In this document: positions 29,732 to 49,449 of the stretch, piece after piece
How positions within the stretch are numbered: position 1 is the stretch's first letter
How the letters are laid out: each line of letters starts with the position of its first letter
From: Desulforudis sp.
GTDB taxonomy: Bacteria > Bacillota > Desulfotomaculia > Desulfotomaculales > Desulforudaceae
DNA: 50,035 nucleotides
Direction: 5' to 3'
Assembly (NCBI GenBank): GCA_003604975.1
Contig: QZIR01000013.1
Location: 1-50,035, forward strand
Translations under genes and position numbers: made by a program
The notes under the pieces: generated by a model
Database searches by the model: none
Told to the model about the DNA's origin: nothing
The model's input: the letters and a program-made list of their open reading frames with translations, nothing else

Positions 29732-29737
29732 TGCCAC

Positions 29738-29838
29738 AAACATGGTGGCCGAAGCCGCCGAAACCCTGTTGACTCTGGTTTGAAAACGTGCCACGGAGGT
29801 ACAAGCCTGGCCAAAAGGCGGGCCCTTCGTGGTTTTTG
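29738..29838 (+). ncRNA. Candidate terminated small RNA or orphan leader
   Basis: After a TATAAT box comes a hairpin GGTGGC-CGAA-GCCGCC (29744-29759), then a terminator whose outer stem is CCACG (29791-29795) with CGTGG (29828-29832), followed by TTTTTGTTTT. No + strand gene follows, so it would be a free RNA of about 100 bases. The hairpin and the terminator stem are shared with the leader at 46451-46553. The match to any known RNA family was not recognised. Confidence 0.4.
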
Positions 29839-29932
29839 TTTTGATGCATAGTCGTTTTAGCGTGTGGTGTTGCCGCTCGTGAATTATGGTGTCAGAACTC
29901 TCACCGCCACTGACGTGACTGGTTCATTTTAG

Positions 29933-30033: not shown

Positions 30034-32130
30034 TTAATCCACGTGAAACACTTTCCGCTGGTCGTATTCGGCCTTTTTCCCTTCGTTCCACTGGCTGACC
30101 GGGCGGTAATAACCTACGATGCGCGAATAGATCTCGGTCGTGCTGCCGCAACTGGGGCATTGCTGGTGTTCGCCGCTGATGTACCCGTGGCTGCCGCACA
30201 CCGAGTAAGTCGGCGTCACCGAAATATAGGGCAGGCGGTAGCTGTTAGTTACTTTCTTGACGAGCGCGGCGCAACCTTCCGGATCGGGCAAGGCCTCGCC
30301 CAGGAAGATATGGGCGACCGTTCCGCCTGTGTACAGCGTCTGCAGCGGTTCCTGGTGTTCGAGCATGGCAAAAACATCGTCAGTTTCGTAAACCGGCAAC
30401 TGGGTAGAGTTTGTGTAGTACGGCGCCGCGCCTTTCCTCCATTCGTCTTCGTTCGCGACAAGGATGCCCGGAAATTCCTTCTTGTCAATACGGGCCAGAC
30501 GGTGGGAACAACCCTCGGCAGGTGTCGCTTCCAGGTTATAAAGAATGCCCGTGCGTTCCTGGACACCCACTAGAAATTCCCGCATGAAAGTAAGGATACG
30601 CCTTGCGAAATCTCTGCCTTCCGGCTCATAAATGCTTTTGTGATGGAGGTTTTGTGCTGCTTCGGCGGCTCCCACCAACCCGATGGTGGCAAAATGGTTG
30701 GTCCAGTAACTCCCCGTTCTCTCTTTAACTCCCCGCAGGTAGTGGCGCGAGTAGGGATAGAGCCCGTTGCCGGTCAGCCTTTCCAGGACGCGGCGTTTGA
30801 TTTCCAGGGAGGTGACGGCGATAGAAGCCAGATGCGCCAAACGGGTGAAAAAGTCCTGTTCGTCCTGTGCCAGGTAAGCTAAACGCGGAAGGTTCAGTGT
30901 TACCACCCCGATGGAACCGGTCAAGGGGCTGGCGCCGAACAGTCCTCCACCCCGCTTTAAAAGCTCTTTGTTGTCGATGCGCAGGCGGCAGCACATGGAC
31001 CGCACGTCTTCCGGTTGGAGATCGGAATTGATGAAGTTGGCGAAGTAAGGCGTCCCGTATTTCGCCGTAACGGCAAAGAGCTTTTGTGCTACAGGACCTC
31101 CCCAGGCGAATTCCGGCGAAACATTGTAAGTTGGGATAGGAAAGGCAAACCCTCGCCCGCAGGCGTCGCCCTCCACCAGGACGTCGGCGAACGCCTCATT
31201 GATCGTATTCACTTCTTCCTGATAGTCACCGTAACAGGTATTCAGTTCCCGGCCGCCCACCACGGCGGGTTCGCCTTGCATAAAACCGGGGATGTCCAGA
31301 TCCATGGTAATGTTGGTGAACGGTGTCTGGTAGCCCGTCCGGGTGGGCACGTTCAGATTGAAAACAAACTCCTGGATGGCCTGCTTCACTTCCTTGTAGC
31401 TTAGGTTATCGGCGCGGACGAAGGGGGCGAGAAGCGTATCGACGTTGGAAAAAGCCTGGGCGCCCGCTGCTTCGCCCTGCAGGGTATAAAGGAAGTTGAC
31501 CATTTGGCCCAGGGCCGAGCGGAAGTGTTTGGGCGGTCCGGACGATACCTGGTTGGGCACCCCGCCGAAACCTTCTTCCAGGAGCTGTTTAAGATCCCAC
31601 CCTACGCAATACACACTCAGGTAACCAAGATCATGGATATGAAAAACGCCTTCAAGGTGCGCCCGCCGCACCTCGGGAGGGTAGATGCGTTCCAGCCAGA
31701 AGTGGGCGGCCGCGGTGTTCGAAAGGTAGCTGTTTAATCCCTGTAGGGAAAACGAGGAGTTGGCGTTTTCGGCTACGCGCCAATCCGCCTGGTTGAGATA
31801 GGATTCCACCAGGTCACAGCTTACCAGGGACTTCATTTCACGCAGCTGGCGATGCTGTTCGCGATACAATATATAGGCCTTGGCGGTCTGATGATAGCCA
31901 AGTTCCATGAGGCTTCTCTCCACGAGGTCCTGTACTTCTTCAACGGTGGGAATAGCAATACCCCGGTTTTCCAGAGCTTCAATAACGCGCTGCGTTACCG
32001 CCGGGGCGGCGTCAGTGTCCGCCCACCGGGCTTCTCCCGTAGCCTTGAAAGCCTGTGCGATGGCGTTGGTAATGCGCATACTTTTGAAAGCTATGGTGCG
32101 CCCATCGCGTTTTGTGATCGATGTAATCAT
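30034..32130 (-). CDS. nrdD: Anaerobic ribonucleoside-triphosphate reductase (class III)
   Basis: A 698-residue glycyl-radical enzyme that makes deoxyribonucleotides without oxygen. The N-terminal ATP-cone (MITSITKRDGRTIAFKSMRI) senses dATP/ATP. The core has FHIHDLGY and NLNVPTRTGYQTPFTN. The C-terminus has the zinc site (VCGSHGYISGEHQQCPSCGS) and the radical motif RIVGYYRP with Gly near residue 673. The start is ATG behind AAGGAGG. Upstream on the same strand are an intrinsic terminator and a cobalamin riboswitch, so it is likely shut off when adenosylcobalamin is plentiful and a B12-dependent class II enzyme can work. The activase NrdG is not intact nearby. Confidence 0.95.
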   Translation of the reverse strand: MITSITKRDGRTIAFKSMRITNAIAQAFKATGEARWADTDAAPAVTQRVIEALENRGIAIPTVEEVQDLVERSLMELGYHQTAKAYILYREQHRQLREMKSLVSCDLVESYLNQADWRVAENANSSFSLQGLNSYLSNTAAAHFWLERIYPPEVRRAHLEGVFHIHDLGYLSVYCVGWDLKQLLEEGFGGVPNQVSSGPPKHFRSALGQMVNFLYTLQGEAAGAQAFSNVDTLLAPFVRADNLSYKEVKQAIQEFVFNLNVPTRTGYQTPFTNITMDLDIPGFMQGEPAVVGGRELNTCYGDYQEEVNTINEAFADVLVEGDACGRGFAFPIPTYNVSPEFAWGGPVAQKLFAVTAKYGTPYFANFINSDLQPEDVRSMCCRLRIDNKELLKRGGGLFGASPLTGSIGVVTLNLPRLAYLAQDEQDFFTRLAHLASIAVTSLEIKRRVLERLTGNGLYPYSRHYLRGVKERTGSYWTNHFATIGLVGAAEAAQNLHHKSIYEPEGRDFARRILTFMREFLVGVQERTGILYNLEATPAEGCSHRLARIDKKEFPGILVANEDEWRKGAAPYYTNSTQLPVYETDDVFAMLEHQEPLQTLYTGGTVAHIFLGEALPDPEGCAALVKKVTNSYRLPYISVTPTYSVCGSHGYISGEHQQCPSCGSTTEIYSRIVGYYRPVSQWNEGKKAEYDQRKVFHVD

Positions 32131-32267: not shown

Positions 32268-32399
32268 CCAGCATGCAAAATCCCAGCATCTCCTGCCGTC
32301 TGCGCACGCACATTAAAGGCAGGCGCACCGGTAGAGCCCTTGATTTCGAACACGCTGCTCCCCGCCTCTCGACCGGAGGCAGATAAGGAGCGCTAACAA

Positions 32400-32562
32400 G
32401 CAGGCAGGTCTCCTGGCTCGCGGTCATTGTCGCCGTACCCGCCTTCCCGGGTTACCGGTGGCGTCCTGGGGGGCGACTCATCGCTTACAGTAGCGGGACT
32501 GCTCAGGAATTGCACCTGATTCCCTATTATCCCCTGGTTAGGGGCACCTGCTTATCCTTTAT
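32400..32562 (-). promoter_or_regulatory. Cobalamin (B12) riboswitch controlling nrdD
   Basis: Read on the minus strand, the conserved elements appear in order: AGGTGCCC, GGGAATCAGGTGCAATTCC, CAGTCCCGCTACTGTAA, ACGCCACCGGTAACC, GGGAAGGC, and the B12 box AGCCAGGAGACCTGCC (32405-32420). This is the full core of the AdoCbl riboswitch class. It starts within about 16 bases of the hydE stop, so it lies between hydE and nrdD. The terminator at 32233-32267 follows after about 130 bases. Ends are approximate. Confidence 0.93.
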
Positions 32563-32577
32563 GTGCTAAGAGCCATT

Positions 32578-38709: not shown

Positions 38710-40305
38710 CTACCCCGGGTGATTATTGGTCTTGCGGTGACCCGGAACAACATCATACCGAACTACGGGACCGCGGTTCACATAAGTGGTGTGAAGCAAC
38801 TGTTTCGCAAGTGCGCTATACGGCTCTCCCAAGAAATTCTGGTAGAGCGCCAGAACCTCGGAATTCTCATACGATGCGCGCTGAATCTCGGCTGCGTCTT
38901 TAACATAGAGAGCATCGATCCGCGCTTGGCGGATAGGATCGGTTGGCGGAACGGCCGTTCTAGGCTGGCCGCCGCCGCCGATACAGCCGCCGGAACAGGA
39001 CATGAACTCGATGAAATGCCAGCCGTTCGGGTTGCCCGCCAGCACCATGTCGCAAACGGTGCGGGCATTCTTGAGTTCATGGGCAACGGCCACGTTAACC
39101 GTCACGCCGTTAATCTGTACAGAGGCTTCCTTAATCCCGACCAAGCCGCGAACCGGCGTGAAATTCAGCAAGTCCTGCGGAGGCTGCACCCCGGTAACGA
39201 AAAAGTAAGCTGTTCTAAGCGCTGCTTCCATTACGCCGCCCGTAGCACCAAAGATAATAGCTGCACCGGTATCTTCGCCCATCAACGAATCATAGCCCTC
39301 GACCGGCAGGTTGGCAAAGTCGATGTTCCGGGCCTTGATCATGCGTGCCAACTCGCGCGTGGTCAAAACCACATCGACATCGCGGCTCACCAGAGAATTA
39401 TTCCAGTACCGGCTGGCGGCATTCATCTCAGGCCGTTGGGCTTCGAATTTCTTGGCCGTACAAGGCATGATGGATACCGAAAGGATCTTTTCGGGATTCA
39501 GTCCTCGGGCCTTAGCGTAGTAAGTTTTGGCCAAAGCTCCGAACATCTGTTGCGGCGACATGCAAGTCGAGACATTCGGAATAAGGGCAGGATAGAAATA
39601 CTCCATAAACTTAACCCAACCGGGGCTGCAGGAGGTGAACATCGGTAACGGGTACGTGCCCTTAACAACCCGCTTGAGAAATTCTGTGGCCTCCTCCATA
39701 ATTGTGAGGTCAGCGGTAAAGTTGGTATCAAGGACGGCATCAAAGCCGAGACGGCGCAGCGCCGCCACCTGCTGACCCGCTACCCATGTTCCGGGAGCAA
39801 GCCCGAACTCTTCCCCAAGAGCCACCCGGGTGGCTGGTGCAGTCTGAACAACTACATGGTAATCGGGGCTGGCCAAGGCATCGAAAACCACCGCGGTCTC
39901 GTCCCGCTCCCGGATGGCGGGGAGGCCATGTTTACCGGGACATACAAGGGCACACTGCCCGCAATTAACACAAACAATCTCTTGCGCCACCTTCTTATCC
40001 CAAAATCCTAAAACCGTCTGAACCTCGTTGCAAACACGGACGCACGCATCACAACTACCACGCAAACAAAACTCCTGGTAGTAAACAATAGACGGATTGT
40101 CAGGAGCAATCGGTACGACGTCGGCCGATGCCAGAGTTGAGGCATAGCCCACAGCAGGTGCAACAAGACCACCAGCAGGTGCAACAAGACCACCCAAAGT
40201 AACACCCGCAAGACTGGCTAACCCCAAACCGCCCATGAGCTTTAAAAAAGACCGCCGGGTCAATTCCTTTCGGGTTTCCTCCTTGGTAAACAGATCTTCA
40301 GACAT
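38710..40305 (-). CDS. Exported [FeFe]-hydrogenase (HydA1), Tat signal
   Basis: A 531-residue protein with a Tat signal (LTRRSFLKLMGG, residues 15-26). A duplicated GGLVAPA motif follows at residues 38-51. Two 4Fe-4S sites come next. The first has unusual spacing (C80-x4-C85-x2-C88-x3-C92). The second is CVNCGQCALVC. The H-cluster motifs read TSCSPGW, MPCTAKKFE and MSCSGGCIGGGGQP. The C-terminus is a fused small-subunit-like tail (YENSEVLALYQNFLGEPYSALAKQLLHTTY). It should oxidise or produce H2 outside the cytoplasm. It is most like the hydA4 product, and no electron-transfer subunit stands beside it. Part of its 5' end is tandemly duplicated upstream. Confidence 0.92.
   Translation of the reverse strand: MSEDLFTKEETRKELTRRSFLKLMGGLGLASLAGVTLGGLVAPAGGLVAPAVGYASTLASADVVPIAPDNPSIVYYQEFCLRGSCDACVRVCNEVQTVLGFWDKKVAQEIVCVNCGQCALVCPGKHGLPAIRERDETAVVFDALASPDYHVVVQTAPATRVALGEEFGLAPGTWVAGQQVAALRRLGFDAVLDTNFTADLTIMEEATEFLKRVVKGTYPLPMFTSCSPGWVKFMEYFYPALIPNVSTCMSPQQMFGALAKTYYAKARGLNPEKILSVSIMPCTAKKFEAQRPEMNAASRYWNNSLVSRDVDVVLTTRELARMIKARNIDFANLPVEGYDSLMGEDTGAAIIFGATGGVMEAALRTAYFFVTGVQPPQDLLNFTPVRGLVGIKEASVQINGVTVNVAVAHELKNARTVCDMVLAGNPNGWHFIEFMSCSGGCIGGGGQPRTAVPPTDPIRQARIDALYVKDAAEIQRASYENSEVLALYQNFLGEPYSALAKQLLHTTYVNRGPVVRYDVVPGHRKTNNHPG
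40150..40195 (-). repeat. 21-bp tandem repeat inside the hydA1 signal region
   Basis: The unit GCAGGTGCAACAAGACCACC (one base short of the full 21) occurs twice in a row on the + strand. In the protein it doubles GGLVAPA in the stretch just after the hydrophobic core of the Tat signal, lengthening it by seven residues. Confidence 0.75.
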
Positions 40306-40408
40306 TTAATCAACCCCTCTCCTTAAATAAGACCGCCGGTCAATTCCTTTCGGGTTTCCTCCTTGGCAAACAGATCTTCAGACATTTAATCAACCCCTCT
40401 CCTTAAAT
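40248..40408 (-). repeat. Tandem duplication of the hydA1 start region
   Basis: An 81-bp unit (40248-40328) is repeated as an 80-bp unit (40329-40408) with very few differences. Each copy holds the ribosome binding site and the first 17 codons of hydA1. The upstream copy lacks one base in the Arg-Arg region (CCGCCGGT against CCGCCGGGT). Confidence 0.9.
40323..40385 (-). CDS. Upstream 20-codon ORF made by the duplication
   Basis: The upstream copy of the hydA1 start reads MSEDLFAKEETRKELTGGLI and stops at TAA (40323-40325). A one-base deletion changes the Tat motif RRSFLK to GGLI and brings the stop. It carries the same GGAGAGGGGTTG ribosome binding site as hydA1, and its stop lies 17 bases before the hydA1 ATG. 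It could be translated and affect hydA1 initiation, or be a neutral by-product. Confidence 0.5.
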   Translation of the reverse strand: MSEDLFAKEETRKELTGGLI

Positions 40409-40416
40409 CTTAAATA

Positions 40417-41029
40417 AAGATACCCTGAATCCGTGATCCTGTTTGCTTGAAATACCTAGAAATCGGGCCTTATCTCGCGTATAAACATCGCCGTGGGTGA
40501 TAAGGGGGGTATTCACCCCGGGGACTTTGGTTTTGTCCAGACGTCGGGCCGGCTCCGTCCGGGCCTTGAGTTCCGGCGTGTTGTTTATCCCTGCGCGACA
40601 GCCGGCACGCCTGCGGGTTTCGCTACGCTCTGGGCGTCGAACCCTCCAGCACCCGGAAGTTCTCCACGAAGAACAGGATGACCAGGAGCGCGCCGATGAG
40701 CAAACCGAGGAAGCCCACCCACTCCATGAGAAACTTTGCTTCGGCAAAGCTTGACTTTCGTGGCTTGTATTTTCGCTGGTTAAATAATCAAATAATAACA
40801 GATGCGCTGTTGTTTTGTAAAGCCCCTGTTGTAATTTTCGTACTCACTAAAGCTAACCCTGCGACGGGAGTTAATTCTTCTTTGGACTGCTCAATGATGA
40901 ATTTCACGCGTACACCCCGCTGGTGAAATATTTGGTAGCGAATATGTGCCTATTATCTCTATTATACGCGAGATAAGGCCCGATTTCTAGGTATTTCAAG
41001 CAAACAGGATCACGGATTCAGGGTATCTT
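40417..41029. mobile_element. 613-bp segment bounded by 68-bp perfect inverted repeats
   Basis: The left arm 40417-40484 (AAGATACCCTGAATCCGTGA...CGCGTATAA) and the right arm 40962-41029 are exact reverse complements over 68 bases. The 477-bp inside has no transposase; it is GC-rich on the left and AT-rich on the right. No target duplication is evident. It lies between hydA1 (minus) and the hydA2/hydA3 operon (plus). Either a non-autonomous transposon or an invertible segment fits. It makes up over half of the 1156-bp gap. Confidence 0.75.
40623..40727 (-). CDS. Possible small membrane protein inside the inverted-repeat segment
   Basis: A 34-codon frame reads MEWVGFLGLLIGALLVILFF then VENFRVLEGSTPRA: one clean transmembrane helix with a short charged tail. 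No clear ribosome binding site precedes it; a hairpin GCTTTGC-CGAA-GCAAAGT lies just before the ATG. It may be a fragment of a larger gene or a real micro-protein. Function unknown. Confidence 0.3.
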   Translation of the reverse strand: MEWVGFLGLLIGALLVILFFVENFRVLEGSTPRA

Positions 41030-41153: not shown

Positions 41154-41331
41154 TCCGGCAGAATAAATAATAAATTAAGTAAAAATGTTTTTGAAACAGC
41201 AGGATATTATCCGTGAACAGCGAACCGATTTATAGATAAAACTAGACGGATAAAACGGATAACCGGAACAGCAGTAGTACGAAGCTATTGTTTTCCGTGA
41301 TCACGTAAACCCGAAAAATTAAAAGCGAACA

Positions 41332-41387
41332 AAAGACCACGAAGGTCGGCCGAAAGGTACCGAAGGCTTTCGTGGTCTTTCTTTTTT
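41332..41387 (+). terminator. Strong terminator in the leader of the MvhD-type/hydA2/hydA3 operon
   Basis: A 12-bp perfect stem, AAAGACCACGAA (41332-41343) and TTCGTGGTCTTT (41369-41380), followed by CTTTTTT. It lies 75 bp before the first gene and after at least 300 bp of non-coding sequence. No other gene is upstream on this strand, so the terminator most likely attenuates this operon. Confidence 0.75.
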
Positions 41388-41461: not shown

Positions 41462-42286
41462 ATGGCGGACGGTTTTGAGCCAAAGATTATCGGATTTCTA
41501 TGTAACTGGTGCAGCTACGGCGGGGCGGACTTGGCCGGGGTAAGCCGGTTTCAGTATCCGCCCAATATCCGGGTGGTCAGGGTAATGTGCTCCGGGAGGA
41601 TTCACCCGAGCTTTGTCTTTAAGGCATTATTGCACGGGGCTGACGGCGTCCTCGTCGGCGGTTGTCATCCCGGCGACTGTCACTATGTTAAGGGAAATTA
41701 TTATACGGAGCGGCGGATCAGGATAATGAGGCGGCTGTTGGAGTGGCTGGGTATTGAGCGCGAACGGCTTTGGGTGCGCTGGATATCCGCGGGGGAGGGC
41801 AGCCGGTTTGCGAGCACCGTGACCGAGTATACGGCCTTCTTGCGGGAACTCGGTCCGAACACCCGGCGTGTTGCAGATGCGGACTACGAGGACCTGGCAC
41901 GGGTGGCGTCGGCCATGGGGTCAGTTGGCCGGCTGGTGCTGGAAGAAGATGTGTGCATGGTGGAATTGGCGAAGTATTTTCTGGAATATACACAGCGAGA
42001 GTCCTGCGCCGAATGCATCCCTTGCCGTATTGGCACCAAGCGTCTCCTGGAGGTTTTGGAGAGGGTGGTGCAAGGAGAGGCGGCTGAAAACGAGTTTGCT
42101 CTATTAGAAGAAGTAGGCGCGGCGATAGGGCGGTCGGCGAAGTGCGATCTGGGCCGGATCGCGGGCCGAGCGGTGGCGGACGTGGCGAAATACGGCCGTG
42201 ATGAGCTTAAAGCGCATCTCCAGGGTACGTGTTTGGCTACCGTGGAAGCCAACCGGGATTGGCAGGCCCTCGTCGGTTCCTTATAA
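41462..42286 (+). CDS. Fusion of MvhD-type hydrogenase iron-sulfur subunit and NuoF C-terminal 4Fe-4S domain
   Basis: A 274-residue cytoplasmic protein; ATG behind AAGGAGTGG. Residues 8-133 are an MvhD/FrhD domain with Cys 14, 17, 43, 68 and 73 ([40 protein letters not shown]), the [2Fe-2S] unit that links Mvh hydrogenase to heterodisulfide reductase HdrA. Residues about 154-240 are the C-terminal domain of NuoF/HydB ([20 protein letters not shown] then [10 protein letters not shown]) with Cys 182, 185, 188 and 228, the spacing of the N3 4Fe-4S cluster. The FMN/NADH-binding part of NuoF is absent. It is followed by hydA2 and hydA3, so a role as electron bridge from [FeFe]-hydrogenase to an Hdr-like partner is inferred. 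Confidence 0.88.
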
Positions 42287-46289: not shown

Positions 46290-46314
46290 TTCCCTGAATA
46301 CTAGGCCATTCCCG

Positions 46315-46373
46315 CCCCTGACATATATCAGGGGTTCTTGCCGGCAGGAACATTACTATCCTGCCGGCTTTTT
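46315..46373 (+). terminator. Tandem terminators after hydA3
   Basis: First hairpin CCCCTGA (46315-46321) with TCAGGGG (46328-46334). Second hairpin CCGGCAGGA (46341-46349) with TCCTGCCGG (46359-46367), followed by CTTTTTATT. The second is a strong intrinsic terminator. Confidence 0.85.
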
Positions 46374-46389
46374 ATTCATTCGTTAACAA
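46372..46389 (+). promoter_or_regulatory. Possible Rex (redox repressor) site
   Basis: TTATTCATTCGTTAACAA fits the Rex consensus TTGTTAA-N4-TTAACAA at 12 of 14 fixed positions; the right half is perfect. It lies 26 bp before the -35 of the promoter at 46415. It overlaps the T-run of the hydA3 terminator, so chance similarity is possible. Confidence 0.35.
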
Positions 46390-46414: not shown

Positions 46415-46444
46415 TTTACAGAATCACTACGGGTCGTCTATACT
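46415..46444 (+). promoter_or_regulatory. Promoter of the DUF3842/hydA4 operon leader
   Basis: TTTACA (46415-46420), 18-bp spacer, TATACT (46439-46444). A transcript would start near 46451, just before the leader hairpin. Confidence 0.6.
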
Positions 46445-46450
46445 ATTAGG

Positions 46451-46553
46451 ATAAATGGGTGGCCCGAAGCTACCCCGGCAGTTGCCGTTAGATGGAGATA
46501 CTAACCACGGAAGTTAGACTTTGCCGAAGCAAAGTTGCCCCCCGTGGTTTTTT
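46451..46553 (+). ncRNA. Structured leader with switchable stems and terminator (candidate riboswitch/attenuator)
   Basis: The leader has hairpin GGGTGGC-CCGAA-GCTACCC (46457-46475) and terminator stem AACCACGG (46503-46510) with CCGTGGTT (46542-46549) and TTTTTT. Inside the terminator is a second hairpin ACTTTGC-CGAA-GCAAAGT (46518-46535). CTAAC (46501-46505), part of the terminator base, can also pair with GTTAG at 46487-46491 or at 46513-46517. These pairings exclude each other, as in a switch. The DUF3842 gene starts 87 bp further on. I do not recognise the RNA class. Confidence 0.5.
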
Positions 46554-46640: not shown

Positions 46641-47096
46641 ATGCGTATCGCAGTAATTGACGGCCAAGGGGGCGGTATCGGGAGACTCCTGGTGGAGAAG
46701 CTTTCCCGTGCCCTGCGCAATAGAAAGGTGGAAATCCTCGTTTTGGGAACGAACGTCTTGGCCACATCCGCGATGCTAAAGGCTGGCGCCAACGAGGGGG
46801 CTACCGGTGAGAATGCGGTTGTGCAGAATGTTGCCAAGGTCGACATCATCGCCGGCACCATCTCCCTGATTATGGCGCACAGCATGTTGGGCGAGTTTAC
46901 TCCGGCGATGGCCGAGGCGGTGGCAGGAAGCCCCGCGATAAAGGTCCTCCTACACCTCAACCGGTCGGGAGTCGAAGTGGTCGGTACGACCGCTGAGCCG
47001 TTACCCCACCTGGTAGATATGCTTGTGGAAAGGGTGAATACCCTGGTTAAAAGTCACGAGGAGTCTCCTAACGGGAAAATCGGTCCAATTCCTTAG
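46641..47096 (+). CDS. DUF3842 family protein
   Basis: A 151-residue protein with ATG 46641; GCAGGAG lies 12 bases before. The frame is open further upstream into the leader RNA, which is not coding. The sequence MRIAVIDGQGGGIGRLLVEK, LGTNVLATSAMLKAGANEGATGENAVV and MLGEFTPAMAEAVAGSPA matches DUF3842, a Rossmann-like small family of Clostridia with a GQGGGIG nucleotide-binding loop. Function unknown. It heads the cluster DUF3842, M52-like, hydA4, ferredoxin, although a terminator follows it. Confidence 0.8.
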   Translation: MRIAVIDGQGGGIGRLLVEKLSRALRNRKVEILVLGTNVLATSAMLKAGANEGATGENAVVQNVAKVDIIAGTISLIMAHSMLGEFTPAMAEAVAGSPAIKVLLHLNRSGVEVVGTTAEPLPHLVDMLVERVNTLVKSHEESPNGKIGPIP

Positions 47097-47171: not shown

Positions 47172-47204
47172 GTCTCAGGGAGAACATGCGAAAGGATGGT
47201 ACGG

Positions 47205-47726
47205 TTGAAAAACGCTGTGATCGTGAGCCTGGGAAATGTGACTTCGGGCGATATGGGGGCAGGGTCATATGTGATCGAGGCGCTTTCCCAGGAGAACTTG
47301 GGTATGAATGTCGATTTGGCGGATATCGGTTCCGAGGTGTTTAACCTGGAAGTGCACCTCTACCAGCAGGACTATGCGATTTTGGTGTACGCCCTGGCAA
47401 GAGGATACCCTGGCGGACACATATCCCAGTTGGCATATCAGGAATTATGCCATGTACGGCAGGGGTGCTCCTGTGGCATGAGGCCGGTGTACGAGAGGCT
47501 TCGTCTGGCGGAACGCTTTGGCATCATGCCATCCGAGGTAACGCTTGTCGTCATCGAGCCACGGGTGGTGTGTCATCGTCTGGGATTGTCCAAGGAAGTC
47601 CGGCCCGCAATCCGGAAGGCGGTCCGCTTAATCAAAAAGAACCTGGAACAGCGCGGGTTTTTGTCTTCATCGCGGGTAACGCCTTTGGTACGGTATCGCT
47701 TGGAGCTGCTTCAAATGACTATCTAG
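47205..47726 (+). CDS. Degenerate hydrogenase maturation protease-like protein (M52 fold)
   Basis: A 173-residue protein. TTG 47205 is about 8 bases after AAAGGAT; ATG 47196 overlaps that site. The start MKNAVIVSLGNVTSGDMGAG matches the GNxxxxDDGxG loop of M52 proteases (HybD/HycI), with Asp16 in the place of the metal-binding Glu/Asp. The second ligand position, normally D in an IVDA-type strand, is Tyr (AILVYALARGYPGG). The His of the third position is not found, and CSCGMRP stands there. The protein probably lacks protease activity. The classic M52 targets are NiFe-hydrogenases, which are absent here, so the role is unknown. Confidence 0.65.
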   Translation: MKNAVIVSLGNVTSGDMGAGSYVIEALSQENLGMNVDLADIGSEVFNLEVHLYQQDYAILVYALARGYPGGHISQLAYQELCHVRQGCSCGMRPVYERLRLAERFGIMPSEVTLVVIEPRVVCHRLGLSKEVRPAIRKAVRLIKKNLEQRGFLSSSRVTPLVRYRLELLQMTI

Positions 47727-47871: not shown

Positions 47872-49449
47872 GTGAAGAGTGACCACGAGCGGGAAAAAGC
47901 AGTAACCAGGCGTTCCTTCCTCAAACTAGTGGGCGGGCTTGGTCTGACGGGGTTGTCCGTGAGTTGCGGCGGCTGCTTGCGTTCTCCCGTCCAAGATGCC
48001 GGCGGAGAAGGCTGGCTTCCCTATCAGTACGAGGCGGCCGGCACTTGGCCGGTTCAGGTGCGTGGGCGGGTGCCCATTGATCCGGATAGCCCCTCGCTGA
48101 TCCGTGACGATGAAAAATGTATTCTGTGCGGACAGTGCTTGGATGTATGCCAGCGTACGCAGACGGTCTTCGGGTACTATGGCCTCCCCCTGGTAGATGA
48201 CATCATCTGTATCAACTGTGGACAATGCGCCATGGCTTGCCCGACGGGAGCGATCAGCGAACGGGACGATACGGCGAAGGTTTGGCAAGCGCTTGATGAT
48301 CCGGACCGGTTTGTCGTGGTGCAGACGGCGCCGGCGACGAGGGTAGCGTTGGGCGAGGAGTTCGGACTGGCTCCCGGCACCTGGGTCATGGGCCAGCAGG
48401 TGGCCGCTCTCAGGCAGCTCGGGTTCGACGCGGTCCTGGACACCAATTTCACGGCCGACCTCACCATTATGGAGGAGGCAACGGAACTTATTAAACGCGT
48501 CAAAGGAGACAAGCCGGGTTACCCCTTACCGCAATTCACCTCTTGCAGTCCGGGATGGATTAAGTTCTGCGAGTATTTCTATCCCGACCTGTTGCCGCAC
48601 GTCTCTAGCTGCAAGTCACCGCAGCAGATGTTTGGGGCACTGGCAAAGACCTACTATGCGAGAAAGAGAAACATTGCGCCTGAGAAAATTGTCTCTGTCT
48701 CTGTTATGCCGTGCACGGCGAAGAAGTTTGAAGCGCAGCGTCCCGAGATGGACGACAGCGGCTACCGGGACGTGGACATCGTCCTGACCACCCGCGAGTT
48801 GGCTAAGATGCTGAAGCGGAAGGGCATTGATCTGACCACGCTGCCGGAGGAAGACTATGATCCTTTCATGGGCAAGTGTACCGGCGGCGCGATTATTTTC
48901 GGGGCTACAGGCGGGGTCATGGAAGCGGCTGTCCGTACCGCTTACTTCTTTATCACCGGTCAGGAGCCGCCAGCCGGCTTAATGGAGCTAAAACCGGTGC
49001 GCGGTCTTGCAGGCGTAAAGGAAGCGGCGGTGGACGTGCCGGGAGTCGGGGCCGTGCGTGTGGCGGTTTGTCACGGGATGGGCAACGGTCGCCAGGTGCT
49101 CGAAGCGGTCCGCCGTGGTCAGGCGCCATGGCATTTCGTAGAATTCATGACCTGTCCCGGGGGGTGCGTGGCAGGCGGCGGGCAACCGAGGACGGCGGTG
49201 CCTCCCACGGATGAGGTACGGGCTAAGCGCATCGCCAGCCTATATAGCGCTGACGCGCGTTGGGGGTTACGGGAAAGCCACGAGAACCCGGAGGTCTTGG
49301 CCCTTTATCAGGAGTTCCTGGAACACCCCCTGAGCGAACGAGCCGAAAAGCTGCTCCATACCGAGTATGTTTCACGGGAGCACCGGCTCCATGCGCTGAA
49401 GCCGCTCAATGCGACAAGCCGGAGAAACGGAACGAAGGGGGCTGAATAG
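47872..49449 (+). CDS. Exported [FeFe]-hydrogenase (HydA4), Tat signal
   Basis: A 525-residue protein starting at GTG 47872 behind AGGAGG. A Tat signal (VTRRSFLKLVGG, residues 11-22) is followed by a hydrophobic stretch and SCGGC, so a lipoprotein form is possible but the lipobox is poor. Two canonical 4Fe-4S sites follow: Cys 83, 86, 89, 93 and 113, 116, 119, 123. H-cluster motifs: TSCSPGW, MPCTAKKFE, EFMTCPGGCVAGGGQP. The C-terminal tail is RESHENPEVLALYQEFL...LLHTEY. It shares the VALGEEFGLAPGTWV segment with HydA1, so these two form one subfamily. The next gene, a HybA/FdnB-type ferredoxin, starts one base after its stop, so the two are one transcription unit. Confidence 0.93.
   Translation: MKSDHEREKAVTRRSFLKLVGGLGLTGLSVSCGGCLRSPVQDAGGEGWLPYQYEAAGTWPVQVRGRVPIDPDSPSLIRDDEKCILCGQCLDVCQRTQTVFGYYGLPLVDDIICINCGQCAMACPTGAISERDDTAKVWQALDDPDRFVVVQTAPATRVALGEEFGLAPGTWVMGQQVAALRQLGFDAVLDTNFTADLTIMEEATELIKRVKGDKPGYPLPQFTSCSPGWIKFCEYFYPDLLPHVSSCKSPQQMFGALAKTYYARKRNIAPEKIVSVSVMPCTAKKFEAQRPEMDDSGYRDVDIVLTTRELAKMLKRKGIDLTTLPEEDYDPFMGKCTGGAIIFGATGGVMEAAVRTAYFFITGQEPPAGLMELKPVRGLAGVKEAAVDVPGVGAVRVAVCHGMGNGRQVLEAVRRGQAPWHFVEFMTCPGGCVAGGGQPRTAVPPTDEVRAKRIASLYSADARWGLRESHENPEVLALYQEFLEHPLSERAEKLLHTEYVSREHRLHALKPLNATSRRNGTKGAE

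Follow-up and report, generated by a model that had tools for sequence, protein, structure and literature searches.

What does the leader RNA at 46451-46553 respond to, and by what means would it govern the hydrogenase genes behind it? An initial annotation of the window, that is, the whole stretch of 50,035 nucleotides of Desulforudis DNA analyzed here, had placed a promoter, a hairpin, three short segments that cannot all pair at once and a terminator at this site, and most of these parts are found as described, all on the plus strand. The sigma-70-like promoter, TTTACA-18-TATACT (46415-46444), matches the consensus at 10 of 12 positions, with 0.8 chance sites of such quality expected across the scanned region. 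The hairpin, hereafter P1 (46457-46475), is predicted by folding as a free 5' hairpin with the stem GGGTGGC/GCTACCC and a CCGAA loop of the NNGRA type, and its stem shows a compensatory T-A/C-G exchange among relatives. A small folded hairpin, CGGC-AGTT-GCCG (46476-46487), is well conserved in Desulforudis only. Next comes an alternative hairpin supported by covariation, H2, which reads CTAAC-(CACGGAA)-GTTAG (46501-46517) and has the family form RACC-ACGRA-GGUY. The intrinsic terminator, AACCACGG...CCGTGGTT plus T6, spans 46503-46553: folding and stem covariation place its 5' arm, AACCACGG, at 46503-46510; folding and sequence place its 3' arm, CCGTGGTT, with the T6 run at 46542-46553; and folding, covariation and a loop tally place a third hairpin with an NGRA-type loop, H3 (ACTTTGC-CGAA-GCAAAGT, 46518-46535), between the arms. 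The leader folds at -39.2 kcal/mol versus -26.1 +/- 3.2 for shuffled sequences (z = -4.1; none of 200 shuffles equals it). A simple terminator scan makes no call here because it permits loops of at most 8 nt. From the end of the T6 run at 46553 to the DUF3842 start codon at 46641 there are 88 nt.

The three segments are also present, GTTAG at 46487-46491, CTAAC at 46501-46505 and GTTAG again at 46513-46517, and one of their two proposed pairings stands. Pairing of CTAAC with the second GTTAG is H2, and it covaries; H2 overlaps the 5' arm of the terminator, so that the two structures are mutually exclusive. Pairing of the first GTTAG with CTAAC was rejected, as it is lost in the closest relatives, which read GCTAG/CAAGC, GTTAG/CAAGC and GCAAT/TAAAC at these positions. 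The window H2 amounts to -2.6 kcal/mol, with a C.A mismatch adjoining the loop, and the two Desulforudis leaders closest to it have a weak H2 or none, despite the family-wide covariation of this hairpin.

Does the leader belong to a known RNA class? The initial annotation recognized none and proposed a search of Rfam and a covariation test among homologous leaders; the former matches no known class to the leader, and the latter finds hairpins that covary, as described below. Rfam 15 at gathering thresholds, run on the whole window, returns only a cobalamin riboswitch away from the leader (125 bits, 32386-32566, minus strand), which lies upstream of a ribonucleotide reductase-like gene (30034-32130, minus strand). 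At E-values up to 10 the leader itself is without any match; the only weak match, to anti-hemB, falls outside it, on a double terminator further upstream (46310-46376), and was discarded. A gathering-level search of 20 loci with relatives likewise returns no match. The NiCo riboswitch model (RF02683) matches neither the window, nor the 20 relatives' loci, nor the leader's own genome (the last search run without a positive control), and the cobalamin riboswitch model (RF00174) has no gathering-level match over the leader. A search of published papers turned up neither a riboswitch for nickel uptake nor an antiterminator leader for nickel, and three large RNA-motif surveys are silent on such a motif in their main texts.

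A DNA search finds the leader in G002, which we take to be Candidatus Desulforudis audaxviator, in a second Desulforudis, and in G012, where it precedes a ZnuA-type metal ABC transporter; TTTACA...TATA recurs upstream of the element in D. audaxviator, in G012 and at further copies within the genome that the window comes from. These three relatives and the window leader were built into a four-sequence covariance model (R1), and 49 sequences into a core model (R2). With E-values that are rough for both models, R1 matches 54 (E 0.1) and R2 82 (E 0.01) of the 113 class genomes, and R2 matches 116 of 398 sampled genomes of the phylum Bacillota (E 0.001). Elements and copies were counted among the matches listed, where some genomes hold 10-22 copies. 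The plan common to the R1 matches opens with a 5' hairpin whose loop is NGRA, followed by RACC-ACGRA-GGUY, a stem with an NGAA-type loop, and CUUCGUGGU-UUUU. Carriers include Desulfovirgula thermocuniculi, Desulfofundulus australicus, Desulfofundulus thermobenzoicus, Desulfotomaculum copahuensis, Syntrophaceticus schinkii and Candidatus Formimonas warabiya. The leader is a member of a widespread, apparently undescribed RNA family of Clostridia-type Bacillota. We note that two elements can stand in tandem ahead of one operon (1435-1498 and 1501-1560 of locus L160; 1501-1582 and 1605-1688 of L120; 2010-2071 and 2285-2346 of L186); tandem copies could possibly give steeper or combined control.

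How do H2 and the terminator relate across the family? CC-ACGRA-GG forms H2, and its ACCACGRA doubles as the 5' arm of the terminator. Most of the terminator stem can do without the 3' arm of H2, and covariation of H2 beyond the GG is therefore independent evidence for this hairpin. The covariation statistics ignore kinship (they carry no correction for phylogeny), and on these terms position 4 of H2 is paired in 40 of 53 distinct elements versus 23.2 in shuffles. H2 scores 0.308 for covariation in one alignment (A4), versus 0.151; none of 500 shuffles attains the H2 score, and the signal vanishes when the partner is slid. Likewise, among 41 elements that come from beyond the class and were absent from the training of R2, position 4 pairs in 41 of 41 (28.5 expected) and position 5 in 34 of 41 (23.4 expected). 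The terminator stem and H3 also covary. All 129 elements compared have a terminator that exceeds H2 in stability, at means of -24.8 versus -4.7 kcal/mol, and therefore the unaided leader should terminate, leaving the genes off by default. With an intrinsic terminator in the 5' UTR and a conserved hairpin that excludes it, the leader is, by its predicted build, a transcription attenuator. The initial annotation had spoken of a riboswitch or attenuator outside the recognized classes, and this holds up; the energetics and a layout like that of ANTAR targets lean towards protein-mediated antitermination rather than direct ligand binding.

The hairpin loops recur in kind. A strict search finds a P1-type hairpin with a GRA loop in 60 of 126 elements, with diverse stem sequences; among P1-type loops upstream of the core, 48 end in GAA and 20 in GGA, the median of all 64 trinucleotides being 0. 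Similarly, 76 of 131 H3 loops end in GRA. P1 and the CC of H2 lie 8 to 97 nt apart (median 48). The repetition of one loop type, NGRA, in P1, H2 and H3 suggests a common recognition partner.

Which genes does the element precede? As the downstream protein of an element we took whichever open frame behind it was longest, regardless of gene. The 130 resulting proteins belong mainly to nickel/cobalt genes, and the Pfam tally is CbiM 20, SBP_bac_5/NikA 16, DUF3842 12, ZnuA 9, FmdE 7, methyltransferases 7, TrmO 4, Peripla_BP_2 4, oligopeptide/nickel permeases 4, ATPases 4, CobN 2, DUF4198 (NikK-like) 2 and ECF 2. The SBP_bac_5 proteins match TIGR02294 (nickel_nikA), down to 7e-214; NikA/B/D and CbiM/NikM genes are among the downstream set, as are CooC-like ATPases, read from sequence only, and gene types are alike behind the elements from outside the class. 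For the methyltransferases, TrmO and copper-amine-oxidase-like domains the link to nickel is not clear. SAM-dependent methyltransferases recur behind the element (L186, L190, L148 and L126), one of them resembling the corrinoid-associated CpaM, and a tie to metal chelation or corrinoids is conceivable. Judging from these genes, the element appears to be attached to a nickel, and possibly cobalt, regulon. A clear NikR occurs in one of the 113 class genomes (G078, E 1.6e-23), which is without the motif, and the other NikR_C matches in the class are weak, at about 20-27 bits.

In the window, the genes under the leader are those that had been named, and profiles give them as DUF3842 (46641-47096; PF12953, E 2.3e-52), a HycI-like hydrogenase maturation peptidase for the M52-like gene (47187-47726; PF01750, and TIGR00072 at 60.7 bits versus a cut-off of 47.45) and an [FeFe] hydrogenase with an RR-type N-terminus for hydA4 (47872-49449; PF02906, TIGR02512), all on the plus strand. 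This position is true of the window; it is not specific to the element, which heads nickel/cobalt operons across Bacillota. The order leader, DUF3842, HycI and HydA recurs in G012, and HycI/HydA in G002 and G005. HycI/HupD peptidases are known for the maturation of [NiFe] hydrogenases, and we note that such a peptidase, in the window at 47187-47726, lies within [FeFe] hydrogenase clusters of four related genomes.

The window holds further copies. A second terminator/H2 core (41330-41385, plus strand; R2 37.3 bits), with H2 reading GACC-ACGAA-GGTC, precedes the hydrogenase operon that starts at 41462, and a decayed copy (40723-40775, minus strand; R1 27.5 bits), whose 3' arm and T run are gone, precedes the hydrogenase gene at 40305 on the minus strand. 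A complete-looking copy with promoter, P1, H2 and terminator (29737-29842, plus strand; R1 25.3 bits, R2 44.1 bits) has no evident gene behind it and might be a decoy, a small RNA or a remnant. Across the window's own genome, copies stand before the two hydrogenase operons and, in addition, before a NikB-type permease and an ABC operon of the ZnuA type. As separate observations, a perfect 68-bp inverted repeat (40417-40484 and 40962-41029) stands on either side of a 477-bp piece that lies upstream of the hydrogenase gene at 40305 and includes the decayed leader copy along with a short frame resembling a membrane protein. A 71-bp duplication (99% identical, 80-bp spacing, 40258-40408) takes in the first codons of the same gene together with its ribosome-binding site.

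We propose, with confidence that stands about even, that the element defines a family of nickel/cobalt-regulon attenuators in which termination is the default and is relieved at metal scarcity through stabilized P1 and H2. At sufficient metal the terminator would form and the genes would be off; upon scarcity of nickel or cobalt, a factor recognizing the NGRA loops would hold P1 and H2 and permit readthrough. If termination is the default, then expression would depend on a factor that keeps H2 in place, a part that an RNA-binding protein active at low metal could play. By analogy with ANTAR proteins acting on dual hexaloops, the factor would most likely be a trans-acting RNA-binding protein. 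The direction of the response is likewise read from the downstream genes and would be that of a scarcity response. Counting against the proposal are the detection of P1 in only about half of the elements, the weak H2 of the nearest Desulforudis leaders and those downstream genes whose link to nickel is not clear. [FeFe] hydrogenases do not need nickel. That a nickel-regulon leader precedes them, along with DUF3842 and the HycI-like peptidase, suggests a response that spares nickel, in which these genes would be switched on as nickel runs short. Comparably, methanogens short of nickel are reported to switch to Hmd, a nickel-free hydrogenase (PMC12350162).

Could DUF3842 be that factor? The protein is found in 61 of 61 class genomes with the motif (E 1e-6) and, in the phylum sample, in 108 of 116 motif genomes versus 73 of 282 others; shared ancestry may be a partial cause of this co-occurrence. 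Its AlphaFold model is confident (pLDDT 93) and of Rossmann type, Foldseek gives weak Rossmann-type matches only, and a sequence search of the PDB gave nothing useful. Assignment as an RNA-binding protein by fold was rejected on these results, which show no known RNA-binding relative. The gene occurs in many motif-less genomes too, and DUF3842 as the RNA-binding factor of the leader is only a guess. The search of published papers found none that names DUF3842. We also observe that in Desulfovirgula a cobalamin riboswitch (3584-3754 of L017) precedes one DUF3842 gene and the leader precedes another on the same contig (L016).

Among other explanations, an unlikely but serious one is a direct metal riboswitch, in which Ni2+ or Co2+ (or a Ni/Co cofactor) would bind the NGRA loops of P1, H2 or H3, favor the terminator and shut off uptake with no trans factor. 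A regulon made up of metal importers and conserved purine loops in three hairpins are consistent with it, and the NiCo riboswitch is precedent for RNA that senses Ni2+/Co2+ (PMC7266159). However, the terminator is dominant already without ligand, so that a terminator-favoring metal adds little unless folding is kinetically controlled; moreover, no elaborate conserved junction or pseudoknot is seen, and a P1-H2 spacing of 8 to 97 nt is odd for a two-hairpin aptamer. We consider it improbable that P1 and H2 are a dual-hairpin site for ANTAR-domain antiterminators, even though the second hairpin lies inside the terminator as that layout demands and ANTAR proteins occur in 99 of 113 class genomes, two of them in the window's genome. 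The loops have 4-5 nt, NGRA or ACGRA, where hexaloops with A1 and G4 are expected, and the distance between hairpins varies, whereas 20 additional nt abolish the action of EutV (PMC8934654). ANTAR proteins are also common in motif-less genomes, and they are missing from some motif genomes, such as G020 (96% complete, motif at 1e-6) and G094. With loop and spacing rules both failing, the logic is ANTAR-like and membership was rejected. That the element is a plain conserved terminator repeat, ending upstream transcripts without regulation, is very improbable: the promoter immediately upstream, the place within the 5' UTR of metal genes, the conserved P1 loops and H2 covariation independent of the terminator speak against it, and the numerous copies per genome and the one window copy without an evident gene speak for it. 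A hydrogenase- or redox-responsive leader, as the initial annotation implied, is scarcely credible, since two window hydrogenase operons and hydrogenase loci of related genera carry the element but the majority of its members precede metal transporters instead, and the regulon tally rules out a hydrogenase-only leader. A CsrA/RsmA target was also considered and rejected, GAA loops being about as many as GGA loops or more and CsrA not being found in the host genus (genomes G000, G001 and G002).

NikR is present in fewer than half of the organisms with NikABCDE, and this has been read as a sign of regulation without NikR, by means not known (PMC2667541). A leader family in 116 of 398 sampled Bacillota genomes, standing before NikM, NikA and related genes, offers a concrete and testable answer, and it may be the nickel-supply control of bacteria without NikR. 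We lean slightly towards the broader view that this is a new NikR-free class of nickel/cobalt-responsive leader that places [FeFe] hydrogenases under nickel control as a nickel-sparing switch, be it as an OFF riboswitch that senses metal ahead of importer genes or as a new NGRA-loop RNA-protein antitermination system, possibly via DUF3842. The regulon also provides hints to the function of DUF3842, FmdE-like and ZnuA-like proteins, and it suggests that in this deep-subsurface lineage nickel supply helps decide which hydrogenases get made.

Finally, how does the element compare with known systems? The PyrR-binding anti-antiterminator resembles H2, as a lead only, in being a hairpin topped by CC-5 nt-GG within a leader of the terminator/antiterminator kind; its loop is NGNGA, whereas that of the present element is ACGRA, and pyr genes are not among the downstream families listed. 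Cobalamin riboswitches (RF00174) often govern CbiM-type transporters as OFF switches for uptake, but the leader has no match to them, and where these loci do contain true cobalamin riboswitches, the latter are detected apart from the element. The NiCo riboswitch (RF02683, czcD type) is also a leader RNA of nickel/cobalt homeostasis; however, it activates exporters at high metal (PMC7266159), whereas the present element heads importers and maturation genes and fails the Rfam models. The ANTAR system (EutV on eut; PMC8934654) differs in its A1/G4 hexaloops, where the element has 4-5 nt NGRA/ACGRA loops, a wide range of spacings, a third similar loop (H3) inside the terminator and nickel/cobalt genes downstream. 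Yet both share a free 5' hairpin, another that is set into an intrinsic terminator, one loop motif on both hairpins, and termination as the default.
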